From a bacterium (GTDB taxonomy: Bacteria; Vulcanimicrobiota; Xenobia; Xenobiales; JADMJV01): a stretch of 44,614 nucleotides of DNA. Below are positions 9,386 to 41,681 of this stretch, one piece after another. Position 1 is the first letter of the stretch; each line of letters opens with the position of its first letter. The position numbers and the translations under genes were made by a program. Where the stretch lies: NCBI GenBank assembly GCA_030149525.1, contig JASBRJ010000131.1:1-44614 (forward strand). The letters are read 5' to 3'. Under the pieces are notes generated by a model. It was given only the letters and a program-made list of their open reading frames with translations. It ran no database searches and was not told the DNA's origin.

Positions 9386-10264
9386 ATGAGCTTGAGATTT
9401 GGAATTCATACCGGGCAACAGTACTGTCAATTCAGCGAACTGCTGGAACTTTGGAAAAATGCCGAAGACCTTGGCTACGATTGGGCCTCGGTCTTCGATC
9501 ATTTTATCCCCATTTTCGCCCCACCCGAAGGGCCTTGTTTCGAAGGTCTCACAGCGCTTGCGGCTCTCGCCCAGGCCACTCAGAGGCTGACCTGCGGTAT
9601 CATCGTTACCGGCGTCACCTATCGCAATCCTGTTTTGCTGGCCAAATCGGCCGTCACCATCGATCACATTTCGGGGGGGCGGATGGAACTCGGGATCGGC
9701 GCCGCCTGGCATGACATAGAGCATGATCAGTACGGCTTTGATTTCCCCTCTGTGGGCACGAGGATGGATATGTTGGAAGAGGCCTCCCATATCGTCCAGG
9801 CCCTCTTCAAAGAAGACCGACCTTCTTTTCAGGGAAAGCACTTCAAGATCTCTGATGCCCTGTTTTTGCCCAAACCTGTTCAGAGGACCATTCCGCTGTG
9901 GATTGGTGGAGGAGGGGAGAAGAGAACTCTCAAGGCGGTTGCCCGCTACGCCGACGGCTGGAATTACTTTATGACAACGCCTGAGGAGTATCGCCACAAA
10001 CTCAACGTTCTTCAGGAGCATTGCCGGAATGAGAAAAGAGAGCCCGGCACCATACGCCAGGGTATGATCGTTCGCGCCGTTCTTGATCAGAATGTGGAGG
10101 CGCCCGATGACAAAACCTTTGTCGGTAGCTCACAAGAGTTTGTCAAAAAGCTCATTCCCTACCGTGACATGGGAGTAAAAGACTTTCTTCTGCTGGCTCG
10201 ACCGCCTGCGGATAAGACGACATTGGAGGCGTTTATTAACAGAGTGGCCACTGCGCTTCGATAG
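9386..10264 (+). CDS. LLM-class F420-dependent oxidoreductase
   Basis: The protein is 292 aa from ATG 9386 (MSLRFGIHTGQQY). It shows the luciferase-like (beta/alpha)8 barrel features of F420-dependent LLM oxidoreductases: WKNAEDLGYDWASVFDHF near residue 24, LAKSAVTIDHISGGRMELGIGAAW near residue 92 and the IPLWIGGGGEKRTLKAVARYADGWNYF segment. These enzymes use coenzyme F420 or FMN for hydride transfer; the substrate cannot be inferred. No other cofactor gene is nearby. The frame extends to TTG 9359, but the ATG matches the family start. Confidence 0.85.
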   Translation: MSLRFGIHTGQQYCQFSELLELWKNAEDLGYDWASVFDHFIPIFAPPEGPCFEGLTALAALAQATQRLTCGIIVTGVTYRNPVLLAKSAVTIDHISGGRMELGIGAAWHDIEHDQYGFDFPSVGTRMDMLEEASHIVQALFKEDRPSFQGKHFKISDALFLPKPVQRTIPLWIGGGGEKRTLKAVARYADGWNYFMTTPEEYRHKLNVLQEHCRNEKREPGTIRQGMIVRAVLDQNVEAPDDKTFVGSSQEFVKKLIPYRDMGVKDFLLLARPPADKTTLEAFINRVATALR

Positions 10265-22922: not shown

Positions 22923-23003
<81 letters not shown>

Positions 23004-23271: not shown

Positions 23272-24186
23272 TTATGGATAGCTTCTAGAAGGCTGTGAAT
23301 CAAACTCGTCGCTATCTTGCGGGTTGAGGTGTCGCGACCACCTCTCCTTCCAAATGCCCGAGAGGTCAATAAACTCATCGCAGGTTGCCTTCAATTCCGT
23401 GGACAGTCCGCCGGCAGCGGAGTCGAAGAAGGCTAGAATCACAATTTTCCCCAGCCGCTGAACCTCTTCTATCAGAGGCAAATAGTCTCGGTCGCCTGCG
23501 ATAAGTAGAGCCACGTCGTAGTTGTTCTGAAAAGCGTGGGAGAGGAAATCTTTTGATAAGGTTATGTCGACTTGTTTCCGCTTCTTCTCTTTCTTTTTTT
23601 TATGAAAGACGTTCGGATGAAATCCCAACCCGCCGAGCCAGCCGACGGCTTCGTCCACATCCACCGAGCTACCACTCGCGCAACTGTAGTAGTGAGCTCG
23701 AATTGCCGCAGGTTGTACGGCAAATCGAAATGGAATGTCAGTCAAGAAGCGACGGGGGTCCAGACTAGGTAGCCACATAAGCTCCTGTCCTGGCCAGTTT
23801 AGTTCAGTCTTCTCCTCGGGCAGCTCGATGCCGCTTGACTCAAGGACTTTCCGTCCTTGAATTGCTAGATTCTCCCCGTCGATAAAGGCCATCCATCTTC
23901 GAGCCGCAGCACTGAGTTGGACTTCAAGGCCTTCTCTTCTCTCCAACTCAAAATGGAGGTTGTACATCATAGAGGACACTCTTTCAGAAATGTCAGTCAA
24001 GCGAGCGTCGACCAGCTGGCTGACCTCTTCCATACGTTCAGCCTGTTCTCTGCGGGCGATTTCTTCGCGAACAAAGCTCATCCCAATGGAGCCAACATTT
24101 TTAGAGTTTTCGGTGTAGTATTGTTCGAGCTCTTCCATCGACATCGATTTTAGCTTTTGGTAGTTCTTAAATCTCTCTAAACTCAT
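23272..24186 (-). CDS. NYN-domain (LabA/DUF88, PIN-like) predicted ribonuclease
   Basis: The 304-aa protein starts MSLERFKNYQKLKSMSMEEL behind GGGAGA. A helical N-terminal third (to about residue 95) precedes a NYN domain: FIDGENLAIQG with Asp103 and Asn106, KRKQVDITLSKDFLSHAF and VALLIAGDRDYLPLIEEVQRLGK. These acidic positions form the metal site of NYN/PIN nucleases. NYN proteins usually cut RNA. It is the outermost gene at the attL end, a usual place for accessory or defence cargo. The last 35 residues are hydrophilic. Target unknown. Confidence 0.82.
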   Translation of the reverse strand: MSLERFKNYQKLKSMSMEELEQYYTENSKNVGSIGMSFVREEIARREQAERMEEVSQLVDARLTDISERVSSMMYNLHFELERREGLEVQLSAAARRWMAFIDGENLAIQGRKVLESSGIELPEEKTELNWPGQELMWLPSLDPRRFLTDIPFRFAVQPAAIRAHYYSCASGSSVDVDEAVGWLGGLGFHPNVFHKKKKEKKRKQVDITLSKDFLSHAFQNNYDVALLIAGDRDYLPLIEEVQRLGKIVILAFFDSAAGGLSTELKATCDEFIDLSGIWKERWSRHLNPQDSDEFDSQPSRSYP

Positions 24187-24254
24187 CGCTCTCCCTTGCC
24201 TCTCGCGCCAAAAGGCCGCAGCCACGGTTTCTTTGTGGCTGCGGCTCGGATTTC

Positions 24255-24563
24255 TCAGGATCTGGCCGAAGCCTCCCAGCCACTGACGCCGGTTCTCTGC
24301 GCCCAGTCCTCCAGGACCTCCAGCCTAACCTCCCAGCGACCGTTTTTCTTGCGCCGTCCGCCCAGGCCATCGCCCCTGTTTTTATCGAGCAGAGGGCGCG
24401 GGTCGTTTTCGTAGGCTCGGAGCGCCTTCTCGACCTTTTTGCGCCAGTTGTAGATCTGAGCTTTGCAGCGGGGCTCATACCGGTCAAAGAGCAGGTGCTT
24501 GGCGGCCTCGCTTGTGCTCATCCAATACTCAGGGGTTTGTTGTTTTCTTGGTCTTATATTCAC
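24255..24563 (-). CDS. Small basic protein, possible DNA-binding phage protein
   Basis: GTG 24563 overlaps the upstream stop by 4 nt (GTGA) and follows CGGAGAA, giving 102 aa beginning with Asn-Ile-Arg-Pro-Arg-Lys. The segment MSTSEAAKHLLFDRYEPRCK reads like a helix-turn-helix of the MerR/terminase-small-subunit kind, but no family match is certain. The protein is rich in Arg and Lys. The longer frame to 24770 overlaps the neighbour fully and is rejected. Confidence 0.55.
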   Translation of the reverse strand: MNIRPRKQQTPEYWMSTSEAAKHLLFDRYEPRCKAQIYNWRKKVEKALRAYENDPRPLLDKNRGDGLGGRRKKNGRWEVRLEVLEDWAQRTGVSGWEASARS

Positions 24564-24940
24564 ATCGATTCTCCGTTCGGGTTGGAAAGGTATTCTGCTA
24601 TAGGCGCCCAGTCCTGATCCTGCCCTTGGTGCCGGCGACACACCACCGAACCCTTCACGGCCGAACTCAGGCACGGCTTCCCGTCCCCATTGAATCCTCG
24701 ACATCGTCGATAAGGGACCCTTCCACGTCGCCGAGCTGGGTGGTGGTGGCCGCCACCACCCCTGAGCCACTGAGAGAGCAGTTCGGTTCCATTCTTAAGG
24801 GTGATAAGGTTGAGCGTTGCCAATGGGTAAAGGGCCTCGTCGGCAATTTCGGCAATTTCTAGAGCAGCTTTCAGTTTAGCCGCCTTGTCTTCCAACTCCC
24901 GAAGGTATCCGATGAGCTTGATTCGCTCGACACTACTCAT
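24560..24940 (-). CDS. Cys-rich small phage protein with C-terminal zinc-binding-like motif
   Basis: The 126-aa product starts MSSVERIKLIGYLRELEDKA, with an N-terminal coiled coil. It ends in a Cys/His cluster: CRGFNGDGKPC, then VVCRRHQG. The pattern C-x(n)-GKPC-x(n)-CRxH resembles a short motif common in phage packaging-associated and unknown proteins (GxxCxxPAVxGxxxCRxHGG). The ATG overlaps the stop of the upstream gene by 8 nt. A zinc site is inferred, not shown. Confidence 0.6.
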   Translation of the reverse strand: MSSVERIKLIGYLRELEDKAAKLKAALEIAEIADEALYPLATLNLITLKNGTELLSQWLRGGGGHHHPARRRGRVPYRRCRGFNGDGKPCLSSAVKGSVVCRRHQGQDQDWAPIAEYLSNPNGESM

Positions 24941-25844
24941 GGCCACCACCACCGCTCTTAAGCAAGGTTGAGTAGTGGTCCCATTCCTTAACCAGGGCTG
25001 CGAGCTCATCGAACAAGATGCGGTGGAAGCCGAAGTAGAGGTTCATGTTACGGGTAGCCATTGCGCTCCCGGACGTGTCGACCAAAACGAATTTCTGAAA
25101 GACCTCCCTGATCGCGTTTTCGATTAGCTTCAGGCGCAGTTTCGGATTTTTCTGCGATTGAAAAAAACTGTGCTCCATATCAAGGTCCCCGAAATGAGGG
25201 AGCTGTATCTCAGAGAACCTTTCTCCCTCTGTCCTCTGGGCCTCAGAACGGGCGCCTTCCCAGGAATTACTGACCTTCTGCGGATCGTCGAAAATCAGGT
25301 TCTCCGGAGGCTCCTTGTCATTGATGACCGCTCGAGCAGCCTGCACGGCTTCCGGCTCTTCACGTCGCCGAGGTTTTTTGAATCGATCCCACCGCTCAAG
25401 CAGCTTCTGAATGTGGCGCCGGCAACACATTCGCAGCTCAGCCTCGAGCAGCTTGTTAGGAGTTGAGGGAAAGTCGTCGAGGAGGCTGAGGACATGAGCG
25501 ATTCCCTGAAGGATGCTTGACTCTCGGAACAAGGGGTTTTCGACCAGTCCAGCCTTGTCAGAATCGAATTGCGGACCGTTGAGGAGCCGGTATTCGAAGC
25601 GGGGGAGTTGAGCCGGAAGTCGGCTGTCATTTTCCGCTGCGGGTTGTGACTGCCGGCTCCTCCGATAGTTCGGTTTTTCACCTCTGAGGAGACATTCTGC
25701 CGCTTGGATCAGGTCGGCGGCCAGGTCGTCGGGGAGTTCGGACGGCGGGAATTTCTGTTGCCTTTCGGCGCCAGGGATGTGATGATTCTCAGACAACGAA
25801 GTATCTGAGGGGCGGTCATGATGATTTCTTAGCGGGAATGGCAT
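24933..25844 (-). CDS. Hypothetical element protein, 303 aa
   Basis: A soluble, charged, mostly helical protein with a low-complexity N-terminus and several Pro-rich patches. The segment NPKLRLKLIENAIREVFQKFV precedes a C-terminal helix NLYFGFHRILFDELAALVKEWD. No recognised family. It is the first gene of the leftmost transcription unit (24933-23272) and starts at ATG 25844 behind GAGAGG. Its ~380-bp leader carries the same box as the tape measure unit, suggesting joint control with late functions. Confidence 0.7.
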   Translation of the reverse strand: MPFPLRNHHDRPSDTSLSENHHIPGAERQQKFPPSELPDDLAADLIQAAECLLRGEKPNYRRSRQSQPAAENDSRLPAQLPRFEYRLLNGPQFDSDKAGLVENPLFRESSILQGIAHVLSLLDDFPSTPNKLLEAELRMCCRRHIQKLLERWDRFKKPRRREEPEAVQAARAVINDKEPPENLIFDDPQKVSNSWEGARSEAQRTEGERFSEIQLPHFGDLDMEHSFFQSQKNPKLRLKLIENAIREVFQKFVLVDTSGSAMATRNMNLYFGFHRILFDELAALVKEWDHYSTLLKSGGGGHE

Positions 25845-26350
25845 GACTTAGCCTCTCTTTCTCTTTTCAGTTTTGACCGCTCGGGTCTGCGGAAAGGAAG
25901 GAGCACAAGCCAAAGAGTGCAGGGTTTCAGGTACTAAGGGTAAACCTGTATCCTAACAAGATGGCCCTGCTTTTCTCTTTCCACGGATGAAGCGGGGCCG
26001 CTTTTATTGCGGTTGTTGAACAGTTTTTGATTGCTTTATTCGCATCCTGCCGAAAGAATGTTCGCTTCGATATCGAAAAGAGTCTGTCGGGACCCGATTT
26101 GTCCACTTTGCAAGAAACTTGTCCACTTGGACATTTTAGTGTCCAAAAAATGCAGAGAATCCCAGTTTTAAGCCATTTTTTGCTGTCCAAAAAAAATCTG
26201 TGTCCACCCATATTCACCGTATCACCCAAACCCCCCCCATGTGACATGTTGATCGGTTGGTAATTTCTCCAGTTTATGCTCAATAAAGAAAGCCCGGCGC
26301 AAACCGAGCTAACCTAAAGCGACTGTCCGCCGGTTAGCCGGCGGAAGTAA
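25845..26350 (-). promoter_or_regulatory. Leader region A: shared box plus TGTCCA repeat array, no gene
   Basis: No credible gene lies in this 506-bp gap. A box at 26227-26275 (CGGTTGGTAATTT[CT]TCCAGTTT core at 26254-26275) matches one at 31931-31976, with one mismatch in 22. Six TGTCCA motifs follow towards the gene, at 26100, 26120, 26127 (inverted), 26140, 26184 and 26201. Two of them form the palindrome TTGGACA/TGTCCAA (26127-26146). Several A/T tracts are interspersed. The box lies about 380 bp before ATG 25844, the same distance as in region B. Confidence 0.5.
26326..26345 (-). repeat. Hairpin after the protease gene
   Basis: TCCGCCGG-TTAG-CCGGCGGA is a perfect 8-bp stem with a 4-nt loop, directly after the stop of the minus-strand protease gene. 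It lacks a T run on either side, so it may be a weak or Rho-assisted terminator, or a 3'-end stabiliser. Confidence 0.55.
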
Positions 26351-27553
26351 CTATTCGATGCCTGCAGCTCTCCGGAGCATGGCCAGGTCGGTACCCTCGG
26401 CTGTCTCAGGCTTCTTCGAGCTAGCTTGTACAGGAGCAATACCAAACGCTTCACGCAGCATGTCCCGTTCTTGGTTGACCTCCGGTTTATTGCAGGCTAC
26501 TTCAACCGGCTCGAGTCCGAATGCTTCACGCAACATTCTCCGGTCGAGGTCATCCCCTGGCTTGGGTTTGCTGGCTACTTCGGCCGAAGGAAGTCCGAAC
26601 GCTTTGCGAAGCATTGCTCGATCTTCCTCTTGTTTTTGTTGAGACAGGTCCCGGTACTGGGCCGCACCGCTTTCAAGGTCGACTCTCTCAAGTTTACACC
26701 ACTGGTCATATTTTACTCTGTACTCTTCTAGCTCCGCCTTGAGTGTGGCCACGGAAGCTACCGGCGCCGCCTTGGCATCTTTGGCCAGGTCCTTCTTGTC
26801 GACACCAAGGCTCGCTGCGACCGGGTTTTTGTGTTTGGGATTCATCATCGATAACAGAAAAGTGGTGGCCCGCTGCAGCAAGGCCGTAACTGTCTCCCCG
26901 AAGCCCGGGCCCTCAGAAAGCCTGGCAGTAGGAACGGCTTGCTTCGTCACGATCGAGAGCTCGTAGATTGTTGCCGATGGCTTTTCGAAGAAGCCAAGGG
27001 AGAAGCGATGCCATCGGCCGTCATTCACCCGCTCGCAACAGTAGTCACCCTTAAAGATTGTCAGAACAAAGGTCTTCGCTGGTTCGCCGGCGTTTGCCGG
27101 TACCGTTAGAACGTCAAGAATCTCCCCGTGTGTATCAAGGGCAGAGAGCCTGTGGTCTATCTGAAGTGGCGGTCGGTCCGATGGATTGAAGTTGGCCTCA
27201 AATTGCCGCATTTTCTCTTCGGTGGCCTCGAAGACGCGGTTTCCCCGATATACCCCAGGCCTCATGACCTCGAACTCTCGGATGCTGTACTGACCAAGCC
27301 TGGAGCGATCGCAATATTCTGGGAATGCGTCCATCATGGGCTTCCAGGGGGTAGACGAACGCTGAAATCGGGAGCCGCTAACGTTCCAATGCGTCGGCGC
27401 GACCGGCCCAGCGTTCAGGTTGATTCTTAGGGGGTCAGTAGTCGTTGCTCTCTCCCCAGAAACTCGAGTCCCGCAGCTCTCCGGAAATCCGAAAGCCCCG
27501 GTTGCTTTCCGTCGACTGAGTTCTTCTTCATATGTCCTATTTGGGTTTTTCAT
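26351..27553 (-). CDS. Mu gpI-like phage head protease/scaffold with C-terminal repeats
   Basis: The 400-aa protein has a domain near residues 88-210: VMRPGVYRGNRVF, LQIDHRLSALDTHGEI with His134, and WHRFSLGFF with Ser185. This matches the layout of Mu I-type head maturation proteases, in which His and Ser are catalytic. An Ala/Lys-rich linker follows. The last ~90 residues hold four repeats of MLR[KE]AFG[LI] at about 25-residue spacing, which could be the scaffold part. ATG 27553 follows GGAAGAG, 19 nt after the tape measure stop, so the two are co-expressed. No capsid gene accompanies it, which is odd for a head protease. Confidence 0.6.
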   Translation of the reverse strand: MKNPNRTYEEELSRRKATGAFGFPESCGTRVSGERATTTDPLRINLNAGPVAPTHWNVSGSRFQRSSTPWKPMMDAFPEYCDRSRLGQYSIREFEVMRPGVYRGNRVFEATEEKMRQFEANFNPSDRPPLQIDHRLSALDTHGEILDVLTVPANAGEPAKTFVLTIFKGDYCCERVNDGRWHRFSLGFFEKPSATIYELSIVTKQAVPTARLSEGPGFGETVTALLQRATTFLLSMMNPKHKNPVAASLGVDKKDLAKDAKAAPVASVATLKAELEEYRVKYDQWCKLERVDLESGAAQYRDLSQQKQEEDRAMLRKAFGLPSAEVASKPKPGDDLDRRMLREAFGLEPVEVACNKPEVNQERDMLREAFGIAPVQASSKKPETAEGTDLAMLRRAAGIE

Positions 27554-27572
27554 TCTCTTCCCATCCTCTGTG

Positions 27573-30500
27573 CTATTTTTCCCGCCGGCTTTGATCGATC
27601 GGACTGCGAGTCGTTTTCGAGGCGGTCAACCCGTTTTGTCGCTCCCGCTGTAAGAGCTTACGGGACTGTTTCTGGATCTCTCGCTTGACCATATCGGGAT
27701 CATCGCCGTTGATATAGAAACTAGCCTTCTGGTTGATGACGTTGTTCGGTACTGTGTCGTACTTTTTACGGTCCGCAGTCTGGCGAGATTCAGCCTCCTG
27801 GCGCACCTTGCGGTCGACTTCGGCGAAGCGGGGCGCTTTCGGGACATCTGGCCGCCGGAATCTTGCCACCCCAAAATTCTCTGCAAAATTGGGGAGAATT
27901 GTCGCCTGGACGCCCGAGAAGCTTGCCGATGGAGCAAAGGAAATTCCAGCAGGCTGAGATGTGCCGGCACGATTTCCACCACCGGTACCGGCGCCCAAGG
28001 ACCGCTGAGCAACGTTTTGCAGCCGCCCAAAATTGGTTTGGTTTCGCTGAGTTTCTTGAAACCGCCGAGTAGACTCACTTCGAAAGAGCGCCTCACGCTG
28101 CAGCTGAGCCTTCTTCTCCGCCTGGGTGACGTCCGCGCCGGCAGCGATTGCCGCCTGCTTCTCTTGCTCAATCGCGTCCAGCCTGGATTGCATAAGCCGC
28201 TGCCGACTCTCCCCGAGCTCGCGATCAACATTCTCACCGGCCTGCTTTCGAAGTTCAAGGATGTTGATTTCTTCTTCCAGGGCGCGTTGCTCGAGTTGAG
28301 CTATCTCGTTGGCCTGCTTTAGTTTCTCGTCCGTCTGTTTCTTATTGAGATTCAGAACCCGGTCCTCGAGTTCCGCCACATACCTCAGGCCTTCAGCCCG
28401 ATCGATGGTGCCGGACGCTATAGCCGACTGAACCGCAGCGATTGCAGTCGATGTGTTGGCGATCTGCTGCGCAGTGGTTCCCTGGTTTTTCAGAGCGCCT
28501 TCGAGTCCAGTCTTGAAGGAATCGAATTGGTCCACCAGTTGCTCAGCCTCGACGGTTCGCAGCTCTCGCTTCAGGTCAACCAGGCGCTCGCGGAACCGCT
28601 CCGCCACCTCCGGAGCACCCTGAAACGCTTGTTTGTTTGCTTTCTCAAAAGTTTCCAGGGCCTGGATGGAGTCCTTTAGCTCCTTGCCGACATCGAAACT
28701 TGTGGAGCCCGGGCGAGAAACAACCTCGTCGAGGCGATCATTGACCGTCTTGAGCTGCTTTTGCACGAGTTCCTGGGTCTTCGTGATGCGCTCACGCCGA
28801 ATCTGCTCATCGAGCTGGGCGACCTTGCGGAGGAGGGCTACTTCATCGGTCGACCCTTTCTCGACAAGCTTGATTTGCTTCTGGATTCTCTCCCGCTCTT
28901 GCTCGAGTGTGAGTTCTCCGGCTACCTTTTTGCGCTCGGTTGCCAGTTCGTATGCGGCAATCTCTTTCTGCTTGGCGCTTACGACCTCTGAAGCAATCTT
29001 TTTTTCAAGGCTCGAGCGAGAATCGAGGAGTGTAAGATAGGTCTTGATGGCCTTCTCTTGCCCCTCGGAGATTTTCGGGTCTCCCAGGGCCTTGGTGAGT
29101 TCAAAGCGGTCCAAAGTGCCCACAGCAGTGAGCAGGTTTGCCTCTATCTCCCTCAGCTTGCTGTTTGTTTCGCTCAAGGCTCGATTTAGCTGGCCAACGT
29201 CATCGAGACGGCCCGCAAAACTCAGGAACTGGTTCAGGCCTTCGGCTTGCTCGGTTGCCTCTTTGAGAGCGACGGGAATTTTGCCGAGCGAGCTAATCAA
29301 GGTTTCAATGATATCGCGAACCTGAATCATCCGGCGAAATTCAAAATTCGCTTCCTTGGCGGCTTGATTCACCTGGGCGAGGCTCACGCTGTAAACGTCC
29401 CCGAATTTGCTCCGGAGAACATCGGCCGCCCGCTCTGAAAGGTCGGAAAGCCTGACAAAGTCCCCCCTGGCTGCCGACTGAGCTTCCTTCAAAGAGACAA
29501 GATCGACTCTGAAGCTACCTAAGCTCTTGTTGGTATTGGCCAGGTCTCGCTCCAGGTCCTGAAGTGATTTGCCTGATCTCTCAATAGCGGCAGCCAGGTC
29601 AACCTCTGCCACCCCTTTGAGCGCCTGGGCGAGTTCGTCGGCATTGCGGGCCACATCGAGGTCAAAGGAGAGATTCGTGCCGCTGATTTCCTCCACTAGG
29701 CTGGCGTATGTTCGAAACGCTGTTGCTGAATTCGCCAGTTTGCCGGCGCTTCGGTCAATTGCCTCCCCGAGCTCTTTTTGAGCCTCTGCATACCGGTTGA
29801 TAGCCAGGGTTCCGACTCCCGCTGCTACTGTAGCTGCGAGAAAGAAAGGAGTGACTGGACTAGCGAGTAGGGCGCTTGTAGCAGCATTGATCAGACCAAA
29901 GCCGGCAGCGACTCGAGGCGCCACGGTTCCCGCAAAGGTAGACCCGACGCTATTGAAGACTCGAGCTTGAATTGTAGTGCTTCCCAAGCCTGCGGCAAGG
30001 GACACGATTTTGACCCCAACTGCTTCGAGCAACGCTGCTGAACCGCCGAGTGAAACGATCGCCGCCTTGGCGAGACTAAATGCCCTTTGAGCGAGCAGAG
30101 CCTTTGCAATGACACCCGCGAATGGAATAGCAAACCCCGCAACCACTCCCACGGCGCCCGCGGCCGCAGCGGTGAACGCTCCCATCAGGGTGATCAGGGG
30201 AGATATCGGCTTGATGAGTTCCGTTGCTGCATTTACCCCGGTCGCAAAGGAGCGAGCCAGAGAGGTAAGAGTCGGAACAGCTGACGCTCCGATAACGGCC
30301 AGAAAATTGGTGATAGCGTCTTGAGCGTTCGAAACCGCTCCGGAGAGGGTGTCGGCCTGGCGCTCGATGGAGCCGGCGAACTCTGTGCGGCCCAACTCGA
30401 GGAGTGCGCTCCTTGCGGCTTCAATTTGCTCCTTGGTCTTGAGCGAGACAAGTCCAGCTGAAGAAAGGTTCGCCCCAAATCTGGCAAGCCGTTCACCGGT

Positions 30501-31085
30501 GATGCCGGCAGTATCTCTAAGACCTGTAAAGCCTTCGCTGGTGCCTTGGAGAGCTTTCGCCACCCGCAGAGAGACATCTTCCAGACGTCCGCCGGTCGCC
30601 GCGGCAATGTTGGCCACCAACTCTAGACTCTCCGCACCACCCTGACCGAATGATTCCAGGGTGGTGGTGGCAGCCACGATAGACTCCACGCTGAACGGTG
30701 TTCGAGCTGCGAAGTCAACGGCGTCTTGGAATACAGAGGCAGCCTCTTCGGCGTCTCCGGTTATGCCCTGGAGACGGGCCCTTAGATCTTGAAAGTTCTT
30801 TGCTGCACCGACAGCCGAACTGCCGAACGCAGTGATAGAGACGGCGGTCGCAAGGCTGGCCGCAGCGGCCGCGCCTGCAATAGATTGAACTTCCTGTTTT
30901 AGGCTTTGGTAGGCAGTGGAAACCTGGTTGATCGCTTGTTCAGCGATTTGGCCAGCCTGATCGGCCAGGTTTTGGAGGTCATCTAACGCTTCCTCGGTAG
31001 CGTCTTTTACATCTTCGGTACCGTCTTGAAGGTCCTGGGTTTCCGCCAGGAATCGCATGATAACCGGGATCTCAGTTTCAGCCAT
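27573..31085 (-). CDS. Phage tail tape measure protein
   Basis: This 1170-aa protein has the usual tape measure plan. A helical N-terminus is followed by a conserved domain (FQDLRARLQGITGDAEEAAS, ARTPFSVESIVAATTTLESF, ALQGTSEGFTGLRDTAG). Hydrophobic segments lie near residues 300-420, and a long coiled coil runs from about 440 to 1060. Tape measure proteins set tail length and pass into the host membrane. At about 1.5 angstrom per residue it would match a tail of roughly 175 nm. No other tail gene is recognised nearby, which is unusual. ATG 31085 lacks a strong ribosome site. Confidence 0.88.
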   Translation of the reverse strand: MAETEIPVIMRFLAETQDLQDGTEDVKDATEEALDDLQNLADQAGQIAEQAINQVSTAYQSLKQEVQSIAGAAAAASLATAVSITAFGSSAVGAAKNFQDLRARLQGITGDAEEAASVFQDAVDFAARTPFSVESIVAATTTLESFGQGGAESLELVANIAAATGGRLEDVSLRVAKALQGTSEGFTGLRDTAGITGERLARFGANLSSAGLVSLKTKEQIEAARSALLELGRTEFAGSIERQADTLSGAVSNAQDAITNFLAVIGASAVPTLTSLARSFATGVNAATELIKPISPLITLMGAFTAAAAGAVGVVAGFAIPFAGVIAKALLAQRAFSLAKAAIVSLGGSAALLEAVGVKIVSLAAGLGSTTIQARVFNSVGSTFAGTVAPRVAAGFGLINAATSALLASPVTPFFLAATVAAGVGTLAINRYAEAQKELGEAIDRSAGKLANSATAFRTYASLVEEISGTNLSFDLDVARNADELAQALKGVAEVDLAAAIERSGKSLQDLERDLANTNKSLGSFRVDLVSLKEAQSAARGDFVRLSDLSERAADVLRSKFGDVYSVSLAQVNQAAKEANFEFRRMIQVRDIIETLISSLGKIPVALKEATEQAEGLNQFLSFAGRLDDVGQLNRALSETNSKLREIEANLLTAVGTLDRFELTKALGDPKISEGQEKAIKTYLTLLDSRSSLEKKIASEVVSAKQKEIAAYELATERKKVAGELTLEQERERIQKQIKLVEKGSTDEVALLRKVAQLDEQIRRERITKTQELVQKQLKTVNDRLDEVVSRPGSTSFDVGKELKDSIQALETFEKANKQAFQGAPEVAERFRERLVDLKRELRTVEAEQLVDQFDSFKTGLEGALKNQGTTAQQIANTSTAIAAVQSAIASGTIDRAEGLRYVAELEDRVLNLNKKQTDEKLKQANEIAQLEQRALEEEINILELRKQAGENVDRELGESRQRLMQSRLDAIEQEKQAAIAAGADVTQAEKKAQLQREALFRSESTRRFQETQRNQTNFGRLQNVAQRSLGAGTGGGNRAGTSQPAGISFAPSASFSGVQATILPNFAENFGVARFRRPDVPKAPRFAEVDRKVRQEAESRQTADRKKYDTVPNNVINQKASFYINGDDPDMVKREIQKQSRKLLQRERQNGLTASKTTRSPIDQSRREK

Positions 31086-31157
31086 GCGGCCACTCAGTTC
31101 TGCACCCCGGTTGTATAGTTCTAGTGTAGCAGCTGGACCGCGTCCCCGCGACTCGAA

Positions 31158-31553
31158 TCAGTTGTTTTTCAAAGCTTCGTCAATTTTTTCGAGCCTCTCA
31201 AGGACGCTAACAGTGTGAAAAGGCCACTGTCGGCCCCGATGAGACTCGGGAAAGAGCGGAGCCCCACTTTCGTGGGCGTAGGAGAGACCGACAGCTCTTT
31301 CCAGCCGTTCCAGGCGGAAGTTGACCTTATCGGTGTAGCCGGCTAAGTATTTTCCAAACATTTCGGCAAGGTCCGCAAGCCGCCAGATGGCGTCATCTTT
31401 GGAAACTATACCCGCCTTGATCGCCATGGAAGCTCTTAGAGACTCCATGCAAATGATTGCGGTGTCTTTGTCAGGGTAGTCGGAAACGAAATCCAGGAGC
31501 TCGCGAAGGAAATCGCGGTCTTCTTCATTGTCGTCATCGAGGGTATAGGTCAT
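31158..31553 (-). CDS. Hypothetical protein upstream of the tape measure gene, 131 aa
   Basis: An acidic, helical soluble protein beginning MTYTLDDDNEEDRDFLREL, with ATG 31553 behind GGAG. In phages this position usually holds a tail assembly chaperone, but no similarity to those is visible. The 72-nt gap to the tape measure gene contains no further frame with a start. It is the first gene of the unit 31553-26351. Confidence 0.65.
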   Translation of the reverse strand: MTYTLDDDNEEDRDFLRELLDFVSDYPDKDTAIICMESLRASMAIKAGIVSKDDAIWRLADLAEMFGKYLAGYTDKVNFRLERLERAVGLSYAHESGAPLFPESHRGRQWPFHTVSVLERLEKIDEALKNN

Positions 31554-32198
31554 CGTGTTTCTCCTTCGGATTTGGTGGTGGAAACTGAAAAATTTATCGA
31601 ACGGTCGGACCCGTACATGGGGATTTGGTCAAATGCGCGGACTCGAGTGCACAGAAAACTGTGTTCACAGCGAAAAAAACCGTGAAATCTAGACTCTTCT
31701 GATTTTTCGCTTTGCTGTTCACAAAAAGTCTGTGAACACCAGGCTAGCTGTAAATTTCCAGAATTTTCGAAAAAAATTGGTCGGATTGTCTTTTTTTTGA
31801 GAAAATTTCAGAAATGCAAACGGCTTAGCAGGGTGTAAACTTGGACCTGTAAACATGAGAATTTTCCAGGCTTCATGCCGTTTCTCTTTGTAAACAGGTT
31901 TCCCAGTTAGTGCGTACTCGCGCTCATGCGCAAACCCCCATGTGAAGGATCGAACGGTTGGTAATTTTTCCAGTTTCTCGAGCGAAGTCAAAAAGAGCTG
32001 CAGTGGCCAGGGGGAATGGAAGTGGCCAGTAAAGACTTCCAAAGTCTACCGCGTAGACACGGATGACTACCGGCGCCGGAGAAAAAGAACCCGCTCTGGT
32101 CTACAGAGCGGGGAGTCGTCGAACCGAACGAAACGAAGCGACGTGACTTTCTTGAGATGCTTTGAGTCTACCACTCCAAACGTGCCTGGTATAGCAAA
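31554..32198 (-). promoter_or_regulatory. Leader region B: inverted pair of boxes and TGTTCAC/TGTAAAC array, no gene
   Basis: The ~48-bp box of region A occurs here at 31931-31976 in the same orientation and again, inverted and more degenerate, at 31582-31628. The two form imperfect terminal repeats around a ~395-bp segment. Inside are TGTTCAC at 31662 and 31716, GTGAACA at 31732 (a palindrome with 31716) and TGTAAAC at 31834, 31848 and 31889. Several 6-8 nt T/A tracts are also present. The box lies 378 bp before ATG 31553. A regulatory, packaging or replication role is possible. 31977-32198 holds the terminator below and nothing else. Confidence 0.5.
32080..32112 (-). terminator. Rho-independent terminator of the replication unit (minus strand)
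   Basis: CCCGCTCTG (32090-32098) and CAGAGCGGG (32104-32112) form a 9-bp stem. On the minus strand it is followed by TTCTTTTTC. It lies after the 60-aa gene and ends the leftward primase transcription unit. Confidence 0.75.
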
Positions 32199-34255: not shown

Positions 34256-37090
34256 TCAAAATAGATAAGGTTGGTCGGCCAGAGTATCGATTGGATTTCT
34301 CCCGTCACTCCCGTCACTGCCGTCACTGGCAATCGGCGGGCCCAGGAAATATGCGGTTCTCGCGCGTGACGGCATCGAAGAAAAGGAATGCCTGCCGTCA
34401 CTACTCCCGTCACCTGCCGTCACGGATTCGGCTGAGTGACGGCAGGTGACAGCAGGGTTTCCGTCTGCCGTCACATCTGCCGTCACGCCGCGAACCCCAC
34501 CATTCTGGGCTTCTGGCGTTTCAGTGACGGGAGTGACGGGAGTGACGGGAGATTTCTTGGTTATCAGCCATCCTCGCGCAGAGTTTGTGCGAGTTTGCTC
34601 CGCCGAAATGTCCTTGTTTTGTAGAAGGGGTAGTGCTTCGACGATCCTCTTCCCTAGCGAAGCCGGAGAGCGTGGCCAATAGTCGTCCCCACCACCAGGC
34701 GGCTTAAGACAGTCGAAGAGCTCCGTGGAAGTTCCGACCCACCTTTCCCGATATTCCATAAGCGAGACAATTGCCAAGGCTACACGGTCTTTGTGGAGAG
34801 CCTGGTCATAAAGCTCTTCCTGGGCGTCACGGAATGCTTGCACTGCCTCGCCTGGTTCCCAGGGAAGGCCTTTCTCGGCGGCGGTGATGAAACGAGCAAA
34901 ATCAGCCATCCTGGGTAGGTCCGCAGGGCGCGTATTCTCGTATTCACGGATCCCCACCACCAACGCATCAAGTAAACCACCGAAAATGCTTGGCCGTAGT
35001 TCCTTTGCAAGGGTCCAAAGATCGGTTTCGCACATTCGCCCGTCTCTCTGAATGGGAGATAGATTGATTAGGGCTGTTCGGCTCGCGGTGTCGGGCTGAT
35101 TCACGACTCCACTGATCCCGTTCATCACGATGGGTCGGCGGATTCCGATTACAGTTTCCTCGGTCATCGTGTAGTGGGTTCTGGCGGAGAAGGCCCCACC
35201 AGTAACGGCACGGGCCAGCATGTCGGACTTTTCCGGCTTGACTGTTCTGGCGTTGTCAAACCCCATGATGAGCGAGTTTAGACCGAAGATAACAAAGTCT
35301 CGGTGATTCTCGGGAAACGTCCGGAGCAGCTGTTTGTGCTCGACCGGGTCGACCAAGAACTTGGGCATCCTGGAGCCGGAGCTCTTTCCACTGCCAGCAG
35401 GGCCCTCGAACAAAAGTATCGGTACCGGAGCGCGACCCCACAAAACAGCCACCATCCAAGTGATAATGAGTTTCAGGTGGGCTTCCGAGCAATTGATGAG
35501 GCGACCCAGCTGCATAACGTCGCCACCAGGCTCCGGCATAGGGAGGGTCTCGTCAGCTTGACCACTTCGGCGGAAGTAGATGGAGTTTGGCGAGTCTACG
35601 ACTTTCCATCCGTTTCCGTCGATTTGTATGACTTTCCCGTCTTGGGCTAGGTCATGGTAGTGGGCGCCGTCGACGAAGCCATTTCGCTTTACTACGGCTC
35701 GCTTCTCTCCCTCAAGAGCCAACTCTGCACCCTTGAGCCTGATCACGTGTGCCATCGTTTCAGCTGTCGCCACCTCGTTGTGAGAGCGATAGAAGGCCAA
35801 GGTGAGGTGAGATTGACAATCTTCGCTTCCGAGGGGGATTCCAAGGGATTGACCCGGCGAAAAGTATGGTTCGCCGAATTCCTCGTCGACAAATAGGTCC
35901 CAAGACTCGAGCACATCGAGGAGCTTCTCAAACTGCTTTGGCCCGTCGTCTTTTTCGGCCTTCGCTTTTGCCTTTTCTCGCCTTTTCAGCTCTGAAAAGA
36001 TGGAGCGGCACGCGGTACCGGCAGCCTTGACTTTCTTTTCTCTTAAGATCTGTAGGAGCGGCTCTTTGAGGAGGTCTCGTTCAAGGGTGTTGAGTTGTTC
36101 GGCGGCGGAGCAGAACTCACCAATCGCCTGCTGTAAGGTGGTGGGCGATGGCTCGTCGTCCATTTGGGAAAATGGCACAAGCAAACGGGAAAGGTCACGG
36201 AGCGCAGGGGAGTGGCGTTCGCGCTTAGGTTTCGCAACTTCTTCCTCTTTCGCCGGCGGTTGATACCGCACGGCCTGCTCGAGCTGCTCGGTTAACTGCT
36301 CCTTCGTGTGCCCTTCGGCCATCCAATCCGAAAGATCACCGCCTTCAGCGAGCCCAGGGAGACGGCAAACGAAGACTTCGGCGCCATGCTCGAGCAATTT
36401 GGCCGCGTTCTTGGCCAGGTACTTCTCTCCAGCGTCATCGTTATCAGGGATGAACGTGACAGAGCGCCCGCGGAACACATCCCAGTCAGCCAATCTTCCG
36501 GAGCTGCCAGAGCCGCCAATCGTGGTGGTGGCCAGAGCTCCCAGGGAGTTTGCCAGGTCGGCGTCTTTCTCTCCTTCGCACCAGATGATAGGCCGATGCA
36601 CATCCGCCTGACAAATCTTGTCATAGTGGTAGCAGTAGCGCTCAACTTTCTGCCCCTTGAGCGGTCCGGCTTTGTAGGTCATCCCGGCCCGCCACTTCCC
36701 GCTCTCCCATCGATAAAGCGGGAAGTCTTTGGACTCGTGCCGATCCACTTTGATGTGGTTTTCGCCCTTCGCGTTGCGGTAGTAGTAGCTCGCAACGACG
36801 GGACCCCACTCCGGTGGTGGCCACTGCTTATGCTCTTTCTGTGGCTTGGGCTCTTTGTGCGCAGGCACGTTATCGCGCTTGCTTGGTGGTGCCGGTAAAA
36901 GATGGTCCTTTGCGTACTGATCGAGCCAGCCGCTCTCACTACATGCTTGGCAGCAAAAATGCCCCGTCTCGGGGTCTACAAGCATGGAGGGGTTTTCGTC
37001 GCCATGGTAGTCGCAGCAAGCAATGTACTGGCCGCTCCCGCCGGTGGGCTTCGCTTTTCTAAGGTGGGTCTCAATCCAGGTGCTAAACAT
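34256..37090 (-). CDS. Element primase-helicase (CHC2 zinc finger, Toprim, P-loop NTPase)
   Basis: The 944-aa protein begins with a CHC2-like zinc finger (CDYH at 26-29, CQAC at 47-50). A Toprim domain follows (WCEGEKDADLA near 170-180, FIPDNDDAG near 213-221). The C-terminal NTPase domain has a Walker A motif, GPAGSGKS, at residues 563-570. This is the architecture of phage and satellite replicative primase-helicases. The last ~100 residues are Ser/Thr/Asp/Gly-rich (PVTPVTPVT and SDGSDGSDG) because the DNA there is a GTGACGG iteron array. The ATG overlaps the end of a 30-codon leader ORF. It likely replicates the excised element. Confidence 0.87.
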   Translation of the reverse strand: MFSTWIETHLRKAKPTGGSGQYIACCDYHGDENPSMLVDPETGHFCCQACSESGWLDQYAKDHLLPAPPSKRDNVPAHKEPKPQKEHKQWPPPEWGPVVASYYYRNAKGENHIKVDRHESKDFPLYRWESGKWRAGMTYKAGPLKGQKVERYCYHYDKICQADVHRPIIWCEGEKDADLANSLGALATTTIGGSGSSGRLADWDVFRGRSVTFIPDNDDAGEKYLAKNAAKLLEHGAEVFVCRLPGLAEGGDLSDWMAEGHTKEQLTEQLEQAVRYQPPAKEEEVAKPKRERHSPALRDLSRLLVPFSQMDDEPSPTTLQQAIGEFCSAAEQLNTLERDLLKEPLLQILREKKVKAAGTACRSIFSELKRREKAKAKAEKDDGPKQFEKLLDVLESWDLFVDEEFGEPYFSPGQSLGIPLGSEDCQSHLTLAFYRSHNEVATAETMAHVIRLKGAELALEGEKRAVVKRNGFVDGAHYHDLAQDGKVIQIDGNGWKVVDSPNSIYFRRSGQADETLPMPEPGGDVMQLGRLINCSEAHLKLIITWMVAVLWGRAPVPILLFEGPAGSGKSSGSRMPKFLVDPVEHKQLLRTFPENHRDFVIFGLNSLIMGFDNARTVKPEKSDMLARAVTGGAFSARTHYTMTEETVIGIRRPIVMNGISGVVNQPDTASRTALINLSPIQRDGRMCETDLWTLAKELRPSIFGGLLDALVVGIREYENTRPADLPRMADFARFITAAEKGLPWEPGEAVQAFRDAQEELYDQALHKDRVALAIVSLMEYRERWVGTSTELFDCLKPPGGGDDYWPRSPASLGKRIVEALPLLQNKDISAEQTRTNSARGWLITKKSPVTPVTPVTETPEAQNGGVRGVTADVTADGNPAVTCRHSAESVTAGDGSSDGRHSFSSMPSRARTAYFLGPPIASDGSDGSDGRNPIDTLADQPYLF
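34302..34548. repeat. Iteron array of CCGTCAC/GTGACGG, candidate replication origin
   Basis: Thirteen exact heptamers lie in 247 bp. CCGTCAC starts at 34302, 34311, 34320, 34395, 34407, 34417, 34468 and 34480. GTGACGG starts at 34366, 34436, 34524, 34533 and 34542, and a variant GTGACAG at 34446. The outer triplets have exact 9-bp spacing and opposite orientation, forming a ~30-bp inverted repeat. Satellite origins are known to lie beside or in the 3' part of the rep/primase gene with such iterons. Confidence 0.7.
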
Positions 37091-37467: not shown

Positions 37468-37716
37468 CTACGCGCCCCAGTCGGGCTCTTGCAGGGCTTT
37501 GGGGCCTCGAGGCTCCTCCCGGAGAGTGTCCAGGTATGCGTTCAGGTCCGACAATCGATAGGATAGACGCCCGCCTTTGGAGCGAATGACTGCCAATTTT
37601 CGCGCGCGGGTCAAAGCTAATAAGGTCTTGTAATGGAGGGCGAGGTATTCAGCGGCTTCCCGCGCCGGGAGCGCGGGATCGTAGTGCGGGTGGGCTGACA
37701 GCTGATCAGATGGCAC
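37468..37716 (-). CDS. Excisionase/AlpA-like small HTH protein
   Basis: GTG 37716 sits 6 nt after GGAGG and overlaps the end of the Cro-like gene, giving 82 aa. The core ALPAREAAEYLALHYKTLLA, then VIRSKGGRLSYRLSDLNAYLDTL, is the winged-helix HTH_17 fold of excisionases and AlpA-type regulators. Such proteins direct excision or activate integrase/replication genes in phages and satellites. Its place between the Cro-like gene and primase matches that role. Confidence 0.75.
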   Translation of the reverse strand: MPSDQLSAHPHYDPALPAREAAEYLALHYKTLLALTRARKLAVIRSKGGRLSYRLSDLNAYLDTLREEPRGPKALQEPDWGA

Positions 37717-37930
37717 TAACAACCTCCACTTCGAGCGGCCATCCATTCTCATCAAAGAGCTCGTCGGGCTCCGCGTCCAAGGCCCCAGCGACCCTGGCTC
37801 TCATGACCTTGCCAGCCTTCGTTGCTCCCGTTTCCAGGCGAGAGGCATTCGAGGGGTGAGTGTTAACGGCTCGAGCGAAATCGATCTGGGATAGCCCGAG
37901 AGACTCGCGGATGCTGCGGATCTTTGTCAT
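37706..37930 (-). CDS. Cro/XRE-family regulator
   Basis: The 74-aa protein is almost only a helix-turn-helix domain (SIRESLGLSQIDFARAVNTH, then PSNASRLETG). ATG 37930 follows GGAG. It is divergent from the repressor-like gene at 38031 with a 100-bp A/T-rich gap. This is the layout of a CI/Cro-type switch (Str/Stl in staphylococcal islands). It heads the leftward replication unit. Confidence 0.85.
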   Translation of the reverse strand: MTKIRSIRESLGLSQIDFARAVNTHPSNASRLETGATKAGKVMRARVAGALDAEPDELFDENGWPLEVEVVSAI

Positions 37931-38030
37931 AGCTTTTCTCCATTTCCTTGATGTTGATATTGCTATGTTATGGCTCCACTGGTAACGTGGTCTATGTGAT
38001 TGTTGTAATATATTTACGGTATTTTTCTGT
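37931..38030. promoter_or_regulatory. Divergent promoter/operator region of the lysogeny-like switch
   Basis: The 100-bp region between divergent HTH genes is A/T-rich. It holds short dyads, CCAC-TGGTAAC-GTGG and GTAA-TATAT-TTAC. I could not assign -35/-10 elements with confidence. The rightward gene starts with almost no ribosome site. Confidence 0.5.
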
Positions 38031-39020
38031 ATGCTAGTGGGAAAGCGAATCTTGAGAGTGCGGACAGCATTAAAGCTCAGCCAGGATGCGTTCGGAAGCG
38101 CTCTGTTTGGGAGCCCTGGGGATTCCGGCGTGTCGCAGGCGTATGTTTCACACTGGGAAACGGGTAATCGCCCGATCGCTCAGATCAGCGATTTTGACGG
38201 ATTGATACTTCATCTATCCCATCCCCGCGAGCGCTCTTTTGCGGAAAGAAAGGCTGCTGAATTCTCTCCGCTTGCTTGTTTGCCGGGGACCGCTGGTGTG
38301 ATGATACGCTTATTCTCTCCCGACATTTCGGACGATGAATGGGTTGATGACTTCGAGCGCTTGATTTGGCCATCCAGTAAGGAGCCCTATACCGATTCAA
38401 GACTCTTGGGCCTGATGAAGAGCGGCGCCGGGGATTTGTTTGGGCTCAAACTCCCTCCAACAGAGGCTATCGACCACGATATCCAGATTCACGGTGAAGA
38501 GTACGTTCGAAACCTGGCCCGTCACCTGGTGAACTCGAAAACCGTTGAAAGCGACTCTTGGCGCGATGTCTGCAATCAGGCGAGAATATTCACTGTTGAC
38601 CTCTTCGAAGAGATAGTGAGGATTGCCAACCACCAGGACCAAGGAACTCCCTTTATAGAGCTGAGCTTAGAGGTTGCCGCAGATGATGGGCTGGAAGCTA
38701 ACCTCCATAGAGTTTTCGGGCCAGAGTGGAGGACGACAGACTCTGAGGCTTTTGCATTCGGACTGGACTTCGCCGCGGTACTTCTTGACAATCTTTACCA
38801 TGACGATTCGGACAAGCGGTTTGACCGCCTGGCTTTTGCGCACGGGGCGCTTGAAGAGTGGAAGAGCATTCGGATAGGTCAGCGACAATTGGCAAACGCC
38901 GAGCTACACGACCACCTTGGTAGAGTGAGAGCCAACTTTATGGAACTCGCTATTGGCGATTTCAAGAAAAGAAACAAGAAGCGCAGGGGGAGACCGAGAA
39001 AGAGGCCTGACCATGGCTAA
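38031..39020 (+). CDS. Repressor-like protein with N-terminal XRE helix-turn-helix
   Basis: The 329-aa protein has an HTH at residues 5-50 (RVRTALKLSQDAFGSALFGS, then SQAYVSHWETGNRPI). A ~270-aa C-terminal part follows that is not a LexA/CI protease-type domain: no Ser-Lys pair was seen. It ends in a basic tail, KKRNKKRRGRPRKR. It is probably the master repressor, with an unusual sensing domain like that of satellite Stl proteins, which are relieved by a phage protein. The integrase start overlaps its stop by 8 nt. Confidence 0.72.
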   Translation: MLVGKRILRVRTALKLSQDAFGSALFGSPGDSGVSQAYVSHWETGNRPIAQISDFDGLILHLSHPRERSFAERKAAEFSPLACLPGTAGVMIRLFSPDISDDEWVDDFERLIWPSSKEPYTDSRLLGLMKSGAGDLFGLKLPPTEAIDHDIQIHGEEYVRNLARHLVNSKTVESDSWRDVCNQARIFTVDLFEEIVRIANHQDQGTPFIELSLEVAADDGLEANLHRVFGPEWRTTDSEAFAFGLDFAAVLLDNLYHDDSDKRFDRLAFAHGALEEWKSIRIGQRQLANAELHDHLGRVRANFMELAIGDFKKRNKKRRGRPRKRPDHG

Positions 39021-40176
39021 AGGAAGTGAAAAGAAAGCCCGCGGAGTCTTCGAGCGGCCGCCCGGGTCGGGCATTTTCTGGATACACTGGTACGACCACA
39101 ACGGGAATCGTCATCGCCAGAAGATCGGTACCTTTGCGGAGGCGAAACGCCGGCGAGGTGAGGTCAAAGCGATCGTTCACCGCATCAAGAAGAAGCTCGA
39201 GCATCCGGAGGCACTCGTTGAAGCCGGCTTTCTGGACCGATCGCACCTCGGGCTCAATGCGGACCTTACTCTGAGGGATTTTATTAAGGATTGTCTTCCC
39301 GAGCTGAAACAGAAGAAGTCCTGGAAGGACCTTGAGAGGTTCTCCGCCACTTGGATTCGGCTCATTGGCGGCTTGAAGCTAACGGAGATTGAAGCTAAGC
39401 ACGCGGTCAAAAGAAGAACGGCCAGGCTAGAGAAGGGAGTGGCGCCGGCAACTTGCAACCGGGAAACCGAATTCTTGCGCTCGCTCCTCAATCGGGCAGT
39501 AAGGGACGGGCATCTTCAGGTAAACCAGCTGGCCAAGCTCAAGGACCTCCCGGAAAACAATAAGCGCGTCCGCTGGCTCAGATTTGATGAAGAGGAACAA
39601 CTGGAGCAGCTCATGGAGTCCGAGGATTTCGAGATCGTTGCGTTTGCCATGGATATGGGGCTACGGAGAAGCAAAATCTTCGGGTTGTCGTGGTGTGACG
39701 TCCATTTTGAAGCTCAGGGCTGGGTGGAGGTTCGGGACGCGAAAGCAGGGAGTAGCCGGCAGGTTCCGTTTATGACTAAGCGGGTCCGTATTCTACTCGA
39801 AAGGCGCCGGGCCGCCCAGAATGGTGTGTGGGTGTTTCCGAGCACGGCCCACCACCGCAAGCGAGACGGCGAAAAGCGCGGAAAAAGAAAGTGGGATAAG
39901 CACCTTAATGGGGACGGATTCTGCAAGCGTAAATTCCGGCCCAGCGTTGAAGATGCCGGCATCCATGATCTTACCTTTCATGACCTTCGACACACGTTCT
40001 GTTCTCGGCTCGTGATGGCAGGGGTGCCGCTCCGGACGGTGATGGAGTTAGCTGGGCACAAGAATTTTCAGACGACACTGCGGTATGCGCACCTCGCTCC
40101 AGAGAATTTCACCGCGGCATCCTCCATCCTGAATGAGTTCAACCAGGCTCGTCGGCACTTGCGGGCGGTGAAATAG
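39013..40176 (+). CDS. int: Tyrosine-type integrase
   Basis: The 387-aa integrase starts at ATG 39013 (MAKGSEKKARGVFERPPGSG). It has an N-terminal arm-binding region, a SAM-like core-binding domain and the catalytic domain: Arg218 in GLRRSK, HDLRH with His323 and Arg326, His349 in AGHKNF and nucleophile Tyr358 in RYAHL. It would catalyse recombination at the 55-bp tRNA att core. It is co-transcribed with the repressor, as in many satellites. It lies near attR, with one cargo gene between. Confidence 0.95.
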   Translation: MAKGSEKKARGVFERPPGSGIFWIHWYDHNGNRHRQKIGTFAEAKRRRGEVKAIVHRIKKKLEHPEALVEAGFLDRSHLGLNADLTLRDFIKDCLPELKQKKSWKDLERFSATWIRLIGGLKLTEIEAKHAVKRRTARLEKGVAPATCNRETEFLRSLLNRAVRDGHLQVNQLAKLKDLPENNKRVRWLRFDEEEQLEQLMESEDFEIVAFAMDMGLRRSKIFGLSWCDVHFEAQGWVEVRDAKAGSSRQVPFMTKRVRILLERRRAAQNGVWVFPSTAHHRKRDGEKRGKRKWDKHLNGDGFCKRKFRPSVEDAGIHDLTFHDLRHTFCSRLVMAGVPLRTVMELAGHKNFQTTLRYAHLAPENFTAASSILNEFNQARRHLRAVK

Positions 40177-41166: not shown

Positions 41167-41221
41167 CGGGCTCATAACCCGGAGGTCGCAGGTTCAAATC
41201 CTGTCCCCGCAACCAAAACAA
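41167..41221 (+). repeat. attR: 55-bp direct repeat
   Basis: Identical to 22951-23005. It contains only the 3' part of the tRNA, so it is not a working tRNA gene. The host's native terminator follows at once. Confidence 0.93.
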
Positions 41222-41250: not shown

Positions 41251-41356
41251 CGTTGTAAGGGGCGGCTTCTCCGAAGCCGGAGGTCGCAGGTGTCCTCAGC
41301 GCTTCGCGCTTCCGGAGCACTTCGTTTGCAAATCCTGTCCCCGCAACCAAAACAGG

Positions 41357-41384
41357 AAGACTCGTGGAAACGCGAGTCTTTTTT
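41357..41384 (+). terminator. Second copy of the tRNA-type terminator
   Basis: AAGACTCGTG-GAAA-CGCGAGTCTT with a T run to 41384, belonging to the second tandem unit. Confidence 0.8.
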
Positions 41385-41681
41385 CGTTAAGGGGAAGGCG
41401 ACTTCTTCGAAGCCGGAGGTCGCAGGTGTCCTCGCCGCTTCGCGGCTCCGGAAAAAAGAAAAGCCCCCGAACTTTTTTCGAGAGCCGACCAAGAAGTGTG
41501 CTTACTTGAGTTGTCCCACAGGATCGCCGGTCGTCTACCCCCTTTTTGAGAATTGTCTAGATCGACTTTCCCCTACGGGATTTTTCTGGCGGGGCAGTCT
41601 GCCCGGCTTGACTCTAAGTTCCGGCACCTCCACTTCAACGGCCTTCGGGTCGCCTCACCGACAACACCACAGGTGCTTTCG

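Follow-up and report, generated by a model that had tools for sequence, protein, structure and literature searches.

How many regulators are needed to explain arrays of short repeats that stand beside a common box but differ in their core letters? This question is raised by an integrated element in the window, i.e., the whole 44,614-nucleotide stretch of bacterial DNA analyzed here. A first-pass annotation described two leaders of ~380 bp that share a box, taken to be the same entry signal, and that carry TGTCCA motifs in one case and TGTTCAC plus TGTAAAC motifs in the other. The repeats were interpreted as related binding sites with changed core letters, as if the two transcription units behind them used different regulators. 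The features on which this interpretation can be judged are collected in Table 1.

Table 1. Coordinates of the features discussed, in window positions.
Feature	Position	Strand	Remarks
attL	22951–22997	+	47-bp repeat within/after tRNA-Met (22923–22999); 100% identical to 41167–41213
303-aa ORF	24933–25844	-	Annotated start inside complement of RNA gene; said to follow leader 1
Structured RNA gene (most likely)	25757–26028	+	3′ terminator hairpin; antisense to supposed leader 1
Array of unit 1	26100–26207	-	[G/T]TGGACA at 26201–26207, 26184–26190, 26140–26146, 26120–26126, 26100–26106
Reversed copy in unit 1 array	26127–26133
Box 1 (unit 1)	26227–26275	-	AAACTGGAGAAATTACCAACCG...TCACATGGGG on - strand
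Terminator-like hairpin	26291–26310	-	Ends operon upstream of box 1
400-aa protein	26351–27553	-	Weakly like Mu-type head maturation protease; phrog_976, E 0.017
Tail tape measure protein	27573–31085	-	PF20155, E 1.7e-8 (below curated cut-off); phrog_1272; homologues found
131-aa protein	31158–31553	-	First gene of late-type operon behind region 2
Box C (unit C)	31581–31639	+	Third box; inverted, diverged
Array of unit C	31647–31738	+	GTGCACA at 31647, GTTCACA at 31663 and 31717, GTGAACA at 31732
AT-richest 92-bp stretch of whole element	31723–31814		GC 0.315; between two inverted arrays
Array of unit 2	31834–31895	-	GTTTACA, three copies
Box 2 (unit 2)	31931–31976	-	Shares core with box 1
Terminator-like hairpin	32090–32112	-	Closes operon upstream of box 2
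Primase-helicase	34256–37090	-	CHC2 zinc, weak Toprim, D5/SaPI-Rep-like helicase, winged helix, disordered tail
CCGTCAC, 13 copies	34300–34550		Inside 3′ end of primase gene, part coding for disordered tail
Tyrosine integrase	38953–40176	+	PF00589, E 1.8e-26
attR	41167–41213	+	Right end of element; 47-bp repeat

The Integrated Element

A segment of host chromosome with mraW, mur, and fts genes precedes the element, which is ~18.2 kb long and bounded by perfect 47-bp direct repeats. Past attR, at 41277–41430, the tRNA-Met 3′ end recurs in further incomplete copies (CCGGAGGTCGCAGG, CAAATCCTGTCCCCGCAACCAAAACA), which look like traces of earlier integrations. Further products of the element include an excisionase-like HTH_17 protein, an HTH_3 protein, and several uncharacterized ORFs, with HTH proteins encoded at 37706–37930, 38031–39020, 37468–37755, and 24255–24770. 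At its left end (23272–24225) is a NYN-domain nuclease that is weakly like defense-associated families (PADLOC HEC-09, 1.4e-8; NYN/LabA-like, 2e-5).

Relatives of the tape measure and protease-like genes occur together in a Mu-like prophage that also has portal, F, and capsid genes (contig 6 of genome G010, from another family of the same taxonomic order); the prophage homologue of the 400-aa protein matches phrog_976 at 4e-24. Terminase, portal, and capsid genes were not found among the element ORFs scanned, and the element looks like a phage satellite or reduced prophage. The C-terminal part of the 400-aa protein repeats a motif resembling D-R-x-M-L-R-E-A-F-G-[IL] about four times, which may be a scaffold or capsid-binding repeat.

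Several elements of the same genome (G000), namely L023, L056 (contig 53), L057 (contig 56), and that of the window, encode a recombinase alongside a tape measure-like protein. Some of them add a replication protein or a small CxxxxxC..C..H zinc protein (DUF5763-like), and no capsid genes were noticed in any of the four. In the contig-56 element, the gene of an O-like initiator (phrog_678, 2.4e-9) contains a repeat of 24-bp period, and beside it lies an AT-rich gap with four CATAGAA words (L057 15966–16058 and 15025–15185).

Three Units of Box and Array

The element possesses three box and array units rather than two: unit 1 (26100–26275) in region 1, and units C (31581–31738) and 2 (31834–31976) in region 2. 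Each is composed of a ~45-bp box that is followed, ~10–36 bp on, by three to five forward half-palindromic sites of the form [G/T]TNNACA. The orientation of the sites relative to the box is equal in all units, with one additional reversed copy in unit 1, and both boxes and repeats are far beyond chance.

Boxes 1 and 2, the pair noted in the first pass, are present in the sequence and share the core CGGTTGGTAATTT[C/T]TCCAGTTT, with one difference in 22 positions. This core was not reproduced in 100 shuffles with ≤3 mismatches allowed, and it occurs at two places only in the 8.27-Mb genome. Box C had been missed; over 59 nt, 71% of its positions are complementary to box 2, and the alignment score is 52, compared with 39 for the best of 500 shuffles. 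A candidate fourth box before array 1 was rejected on its score of 21, which was equalled by 51 of 500 shuffles. The idea that the box is a piece of common coding sequence was rejected as well, since the ORFs that cover boxes 1 and 2 read them in different frames.

The words described for the arrays are likewise all there. TGTCCA occurs six times (26100, 26120, 26128 (reversed), 26140, 26184, and 26201), while TGTTCAC (31662, 31716, and 31732 (reversed)) and TGTAAAC (31834, 31848, and 31889) occur three times each, and each array has a palindromic pair (TGTCCACTTGGACA; TGTTCACaaaaagtctGTGAACA) and A/T tracts. Shuffles fail to account for them: a 6-mer, whichever it is, that occurs six times in the 322-bp gap of region 1 was obtained in 1 of 5000, and eight TGTNNAC sites in region 2 in none of 5000. 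When read in box direction, all sites except the one reversed copy match [G/T]T-NN-ACA. This pattern, defined post hoc from the inspected sites, is found 12 times in that direction (five in unit 1, three in unit 2, and four in unit C), whereas 3000 shuffles produced 1.55 on average and never more than 6. The array regions are among the lowest ~1% of the element in GC content.

The changed core letters fall on the two center positions. Sites are GTGGACA or TTGGACA in unit 1 and GTTTACA in unit 2, with uniform centers in both, while the centers of unit C vary (GC, TC, TC, and GA). Judged from these sequences, the two center letters look free. Because the changed letters sit at free positions, a pair of regulators is unnecessary, and because the center already varies within unit C, a single protein that is blind to it suffices. 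The words are related, as had been proposed, but the change of letters does not amount to a change of regulator, and the notion of different regulators gives way to one pattern matched by all three units. The uniform centers of units 1 and 2 can come from local duplication. For example, TTGTCCACTT is exactly duplicated at 26099 and 26119, and 26134–26150 matches 26178–26194 at 88%.

The arrays are also homologous, another feature missed in the first pass. A 30-nt double site at 26179–26208 is identical to 31711–31740 at 25 of 30 positions, compared with a maximum of 23 in 1000 shuffles (ungapped). A gapped alignment of both arrays over their full length was not significant, with 96 of 1000 shuffles as good.

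The Surroundings of the Units

Region 1 had been described as a leader in which the box lies 383 bp before the first ATG, to be compared with 378 bp for box 2. While the arithmetic is correct, the ATG at 25844 lies inside the complement of an RNA gene, so the near-equal spacing means little. In place of a plain leader, the stretch 25757–26028 most likely holds a structured RNA gene that has its own terminator and is read from the + strand. A search of the host's own genome with leader 1 found its first 184 bp at two other places, copies that could be extended to ~270 bp, and a covariance model search added a fourth, diverged copy. The four (window 25757–26028 (+), L056 417–690, and L057 3005–3259 and ~9974–10250) are ~260 nt long, show covariation and a terminator, and lie near recombinase and tape-measure genes. 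The + strand of the contig-53 copy folds at z -4.55, and T-rich sequence follows the 3′ hairpin. In the four-sequence alignment, 16 of 72 pairs are changed on both sides (0 of 500 shuffles) and 93% of cells pair, versus 42–58% in slid versions, figures that are flattered because the structure comes from that very alignment. Rfam 15 gave no match to 25757–26028 at the gathering score, and scans of viral sequences found no copy. This RNA, found inside leader 1, may be the more useful lead.

Unit 1 stands by itself behind the morphogenesis operon and, owing to the RNA gene, in a convergent, transcription-poor gap between the RNA, which ends near 26010, and the 400-aa gene, whose terminator runs from 26310 to 26291. 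Region 1 has no RNA structure of its own (z +0.32), so the module common to both regions is not an RNA fold, and a function as RNA structure in both is unlikely.

Region 2 precedes the morphogenesis operon (131-aa, tape measure, and protease-like proteins). It starts behind the terminator at 32112–32090 with box 2 and the sites of unit 2, continues with the AT-rich core, the sites of unit C, and box C, and leads up to the start codon of the 131-aa gene; units 2 and C stand head to head around the core. A single strand of the region is an imperfect 400-nt dyad (z -5.31), as is expected of two inverted units.

The Primase-Helicase and Its Own Probable Iterons

The obvious candidate for reading such sites is the 944-aa primase-helicase. 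A model of 569 residues (mean pLDDT 68, pTM 0.64) shows a winged-helix-like segment and a disordered tail. Its helicase core is closest to the SaPI5 and PriRep1 initiator helicases (Z 14.6 and 13.0), matches with large rmsd over several domains that are followed by NrS-1, D5, and MCM at similar Z. A structure search with the winged helix did not bring up the P4 alpha C-terminal domain among the matches listed, and a PDB sequence search with the primase gave weak primase and P-loop matches at most.

TGT words had been expected as primase-specific iterons, yet CCGTCAC repeats were found instead; their array forms the probable iterons of this initiator. Four primase homologues carry arrays of their own at the 3′ end, in the part that codes for a disordered tail, with 4 to 9 copies of one 7-mer where shuffles reach ≤3 to 4. 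These arrays are located at L023 3172–3372, L026 11580–11750, L027 11505–11734, and L028 8691–8752; the 7–9-bp repeats in primase-helicase 3′ ends differ in sequence between elements. No iterons were seen in the helicase tail of a distant homologue from Microbacterium phage Zeta1847. SaPI Rep helicases are described as using their C-terminal domain to recognize iterons that immediately follow the helicase gene (PMC7581432). The CCGTCAC array matches this description, so by analogy the primase most likely reads CCGTCAC. Since it has an array of its own, the [G/T]TNNACA sites would need another binder, and none was found.

Occurrence Outside the Element

A search of 149 genomes of the phylum for the box returned one match with three mismatches, compared with three matches for a reversed control pattern. 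Four exact 18-mer matches in viral contigs were discarded, as all lie inside ORFs according to ORF lists, and so were two matches in 84,980 genomes that lack flanking similarity and compare with ~3.7 expected by chance (our own estimate). The leaders had no match in phage records. In the related element loci examined, the best box score was 36, versus 52–61 within the element, and no cluster of TGTNNAC exceeded three in 260 bp. The box and arrays are known, from these comparisons, in a single element. One of the two findings that would have spoken against the box, that it is coding sequence common to both copies, was not borne out, while the other, its absence from every related element searched, was.

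Possible Roles of the Units

The boxes and arrays are probably protein-binding sites that act at the DNA level. One protein, from the element or from a helper phage, would load onto the rows of sites next to the boxes. In region 2, the rows that face each other would bend and open the AT-rich core, which would then serve as an origin-type or replication-accessory site, while unit 1 would relate to it as crr does to ori in satellite P4, as an additional binding region set apart from the first. Such a replication outcome is tentative and falls short of probable. In its favor are the inverted units around an AT core, the short repeats beside an AT-rich segment as in iteron origins, the second, detached row 5.7 kb away, and the insulated positions of both regions. 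Against it, the primase-helicase, as the obvious initiator, has a different and better iteron array (13 copies of CCGTCAC), and region 2 is the sole room for a late-operon promoter. In addition, the center letters differ between units, unlike those of P4 ori and crr, and the box and arrays are missing from all related elements searched. The layout leans toward an origin-type site, with an operator region of the late operon nearly as likely.

As operators or activator sites, the units would bind one regulator, of element or helper, that turns on the late operon from region 2 and the 303-aa operon from region 1, and the box would mark the promoter side. This possibility, a serious one if still less than probable, amounts to the idea of the first pass with one regulator in place of two. 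The promoter of the morphogenesis operon must be in region 2, which separates the upstream terminator from the beginning of that operon. Boxes 1 and 2, both behind - strand terminators, are equally oriented to - strand genes in the order terminator, box, and array, and the element encodes several HTH proteins. However, no promoter-like match rises above chance at either box: none near box 1 exceeds shuffles, and the one at box 2 (0.6 expected) is not common to both. Transcription from box 1 would also cross the RNA gene and its terminator in antisense, box C points the opposite way, and no TGTNNAC is seen in the divergent HTH promoter at 37930–38031, where an autoregulated XRE protein would bind. 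A combined arrangement is unlikely: two kinds of replication control site, the iterons of the primase-helicase tail and the three-unit box/[G/T]TNNACA system at both ends of the morphogenesis operon, with one protein that couples copying to late expression.

That the units are a neutral relic, i.e., duplicated non-coding pieces of a decaying mobile element without present function, is improbable. Their occurrence in one genome only would fit; however, the reading frames of the integrase, primase, and tape measure are uninterrupted, the two att repeats are identical, and the site pattern is kept while the center letters change. Packaging (pac/cos-like) or other helper-recognition sites, read by the terminase of a helper phage, are more doubtful still. 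With tape measure and protease-like genes related to those of Mu-like phage and no terminase or capsid gene found, the element would need a helper and a site for it to recognize. However, the box occurs in no searched phage, viral contig, or prophage, three copies with two inverted are unusual for a packaging site, and a Mu-type portal was not seen in the host's own genome, which is not proof of its absence. Finally, a cluster of host DnaA boxes, as origin or titration site, is very improbable: although TTGTCCACT (26099 and 26119) differs from TTATCCACA by two letters, and loose DnaA boxes are densest, within the window, in regions 1 and 2, the nonamers beside the host dnaA (TTATCCACA and TTTTCCACA) are matched by no array site, and units 2 and C fit even less.

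What stands of the original interpretation, then, is a common box module beside words that resemble binding sites; the two leaders and their different regulators do not. More generally, a common box with apparently different regulators can reduce to one pattern with free center letters. If the origin-type or operator roles are confirmed, the units would offer a way into how satellites of a little-studied bacterial lineage control their replication and the capture of structural genes from a Mu-like helper.

Comparison with Known Satellite Systems

In PLE satellites, an intergenic region carries more than one short repeat family, some of which converge on a poly-A tract (PMC7145576). The element likewise has several repeat families in non-coding regions, with TGTTCACaaaaagtctGTGAACA as a counterpart of the poly-A tract. 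PLE has a RepA_N initiator, whereas none was found in the element.

SaPI-type islands resemble the element through their Rep/PriRep initiator helicases, structurally the closest to its helicase domain. Their origins are placed at the 3′ end of the helicase gene (PMC7581432), and this position fits the CCGTCAC array of the element rather than the [G/T]TNNACA units, found ~2.3 and 8 kb past the stop codon of the primase.

By the definition of P4-like satellites (PMC8628076), the element has the integrase (PF00589), while Pfam scans of its ORFs returned no alpha (PF03288), delta (PF04606), psu, alpA (PF05930), or epsilon (PF10554); sid is a custom profile in PMC8628076 and falls outside such scans. 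The control regions of P4 differ from those of the element in several respects. P4 has the same type 1 repeat at both sites, whereas the element has TGTCCA in region 1 and TGTTCAC plus TGTAAAC in region 2, with an outer pattern alone shared between its two regions. The repeats of P4 are read by its own alpha protein. P4 also lacks a 45-bp box, and the element's primase has separate probable iterons within its gene. The likeness lies in the layout. Like ori/crr of P4 (X51522), the element has a pair of non-coding regions separated by several kb, whose short half-palindromic repeats are mixed in orientation and accompanied by A/T tracts. In the P4 record, type 1 repeats of mixed orientation number six at ori and five per 120-bp copy of crr, and ori, 4.7 kb from crr, lies just before the late sid gene and late operon. 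The P4 consensus repeat TGTTCACC, i.e., GGTGAACA, even fits [G/T]TNNACA, a match that is to be read as resemblance and not kinship because the pattern is loose.
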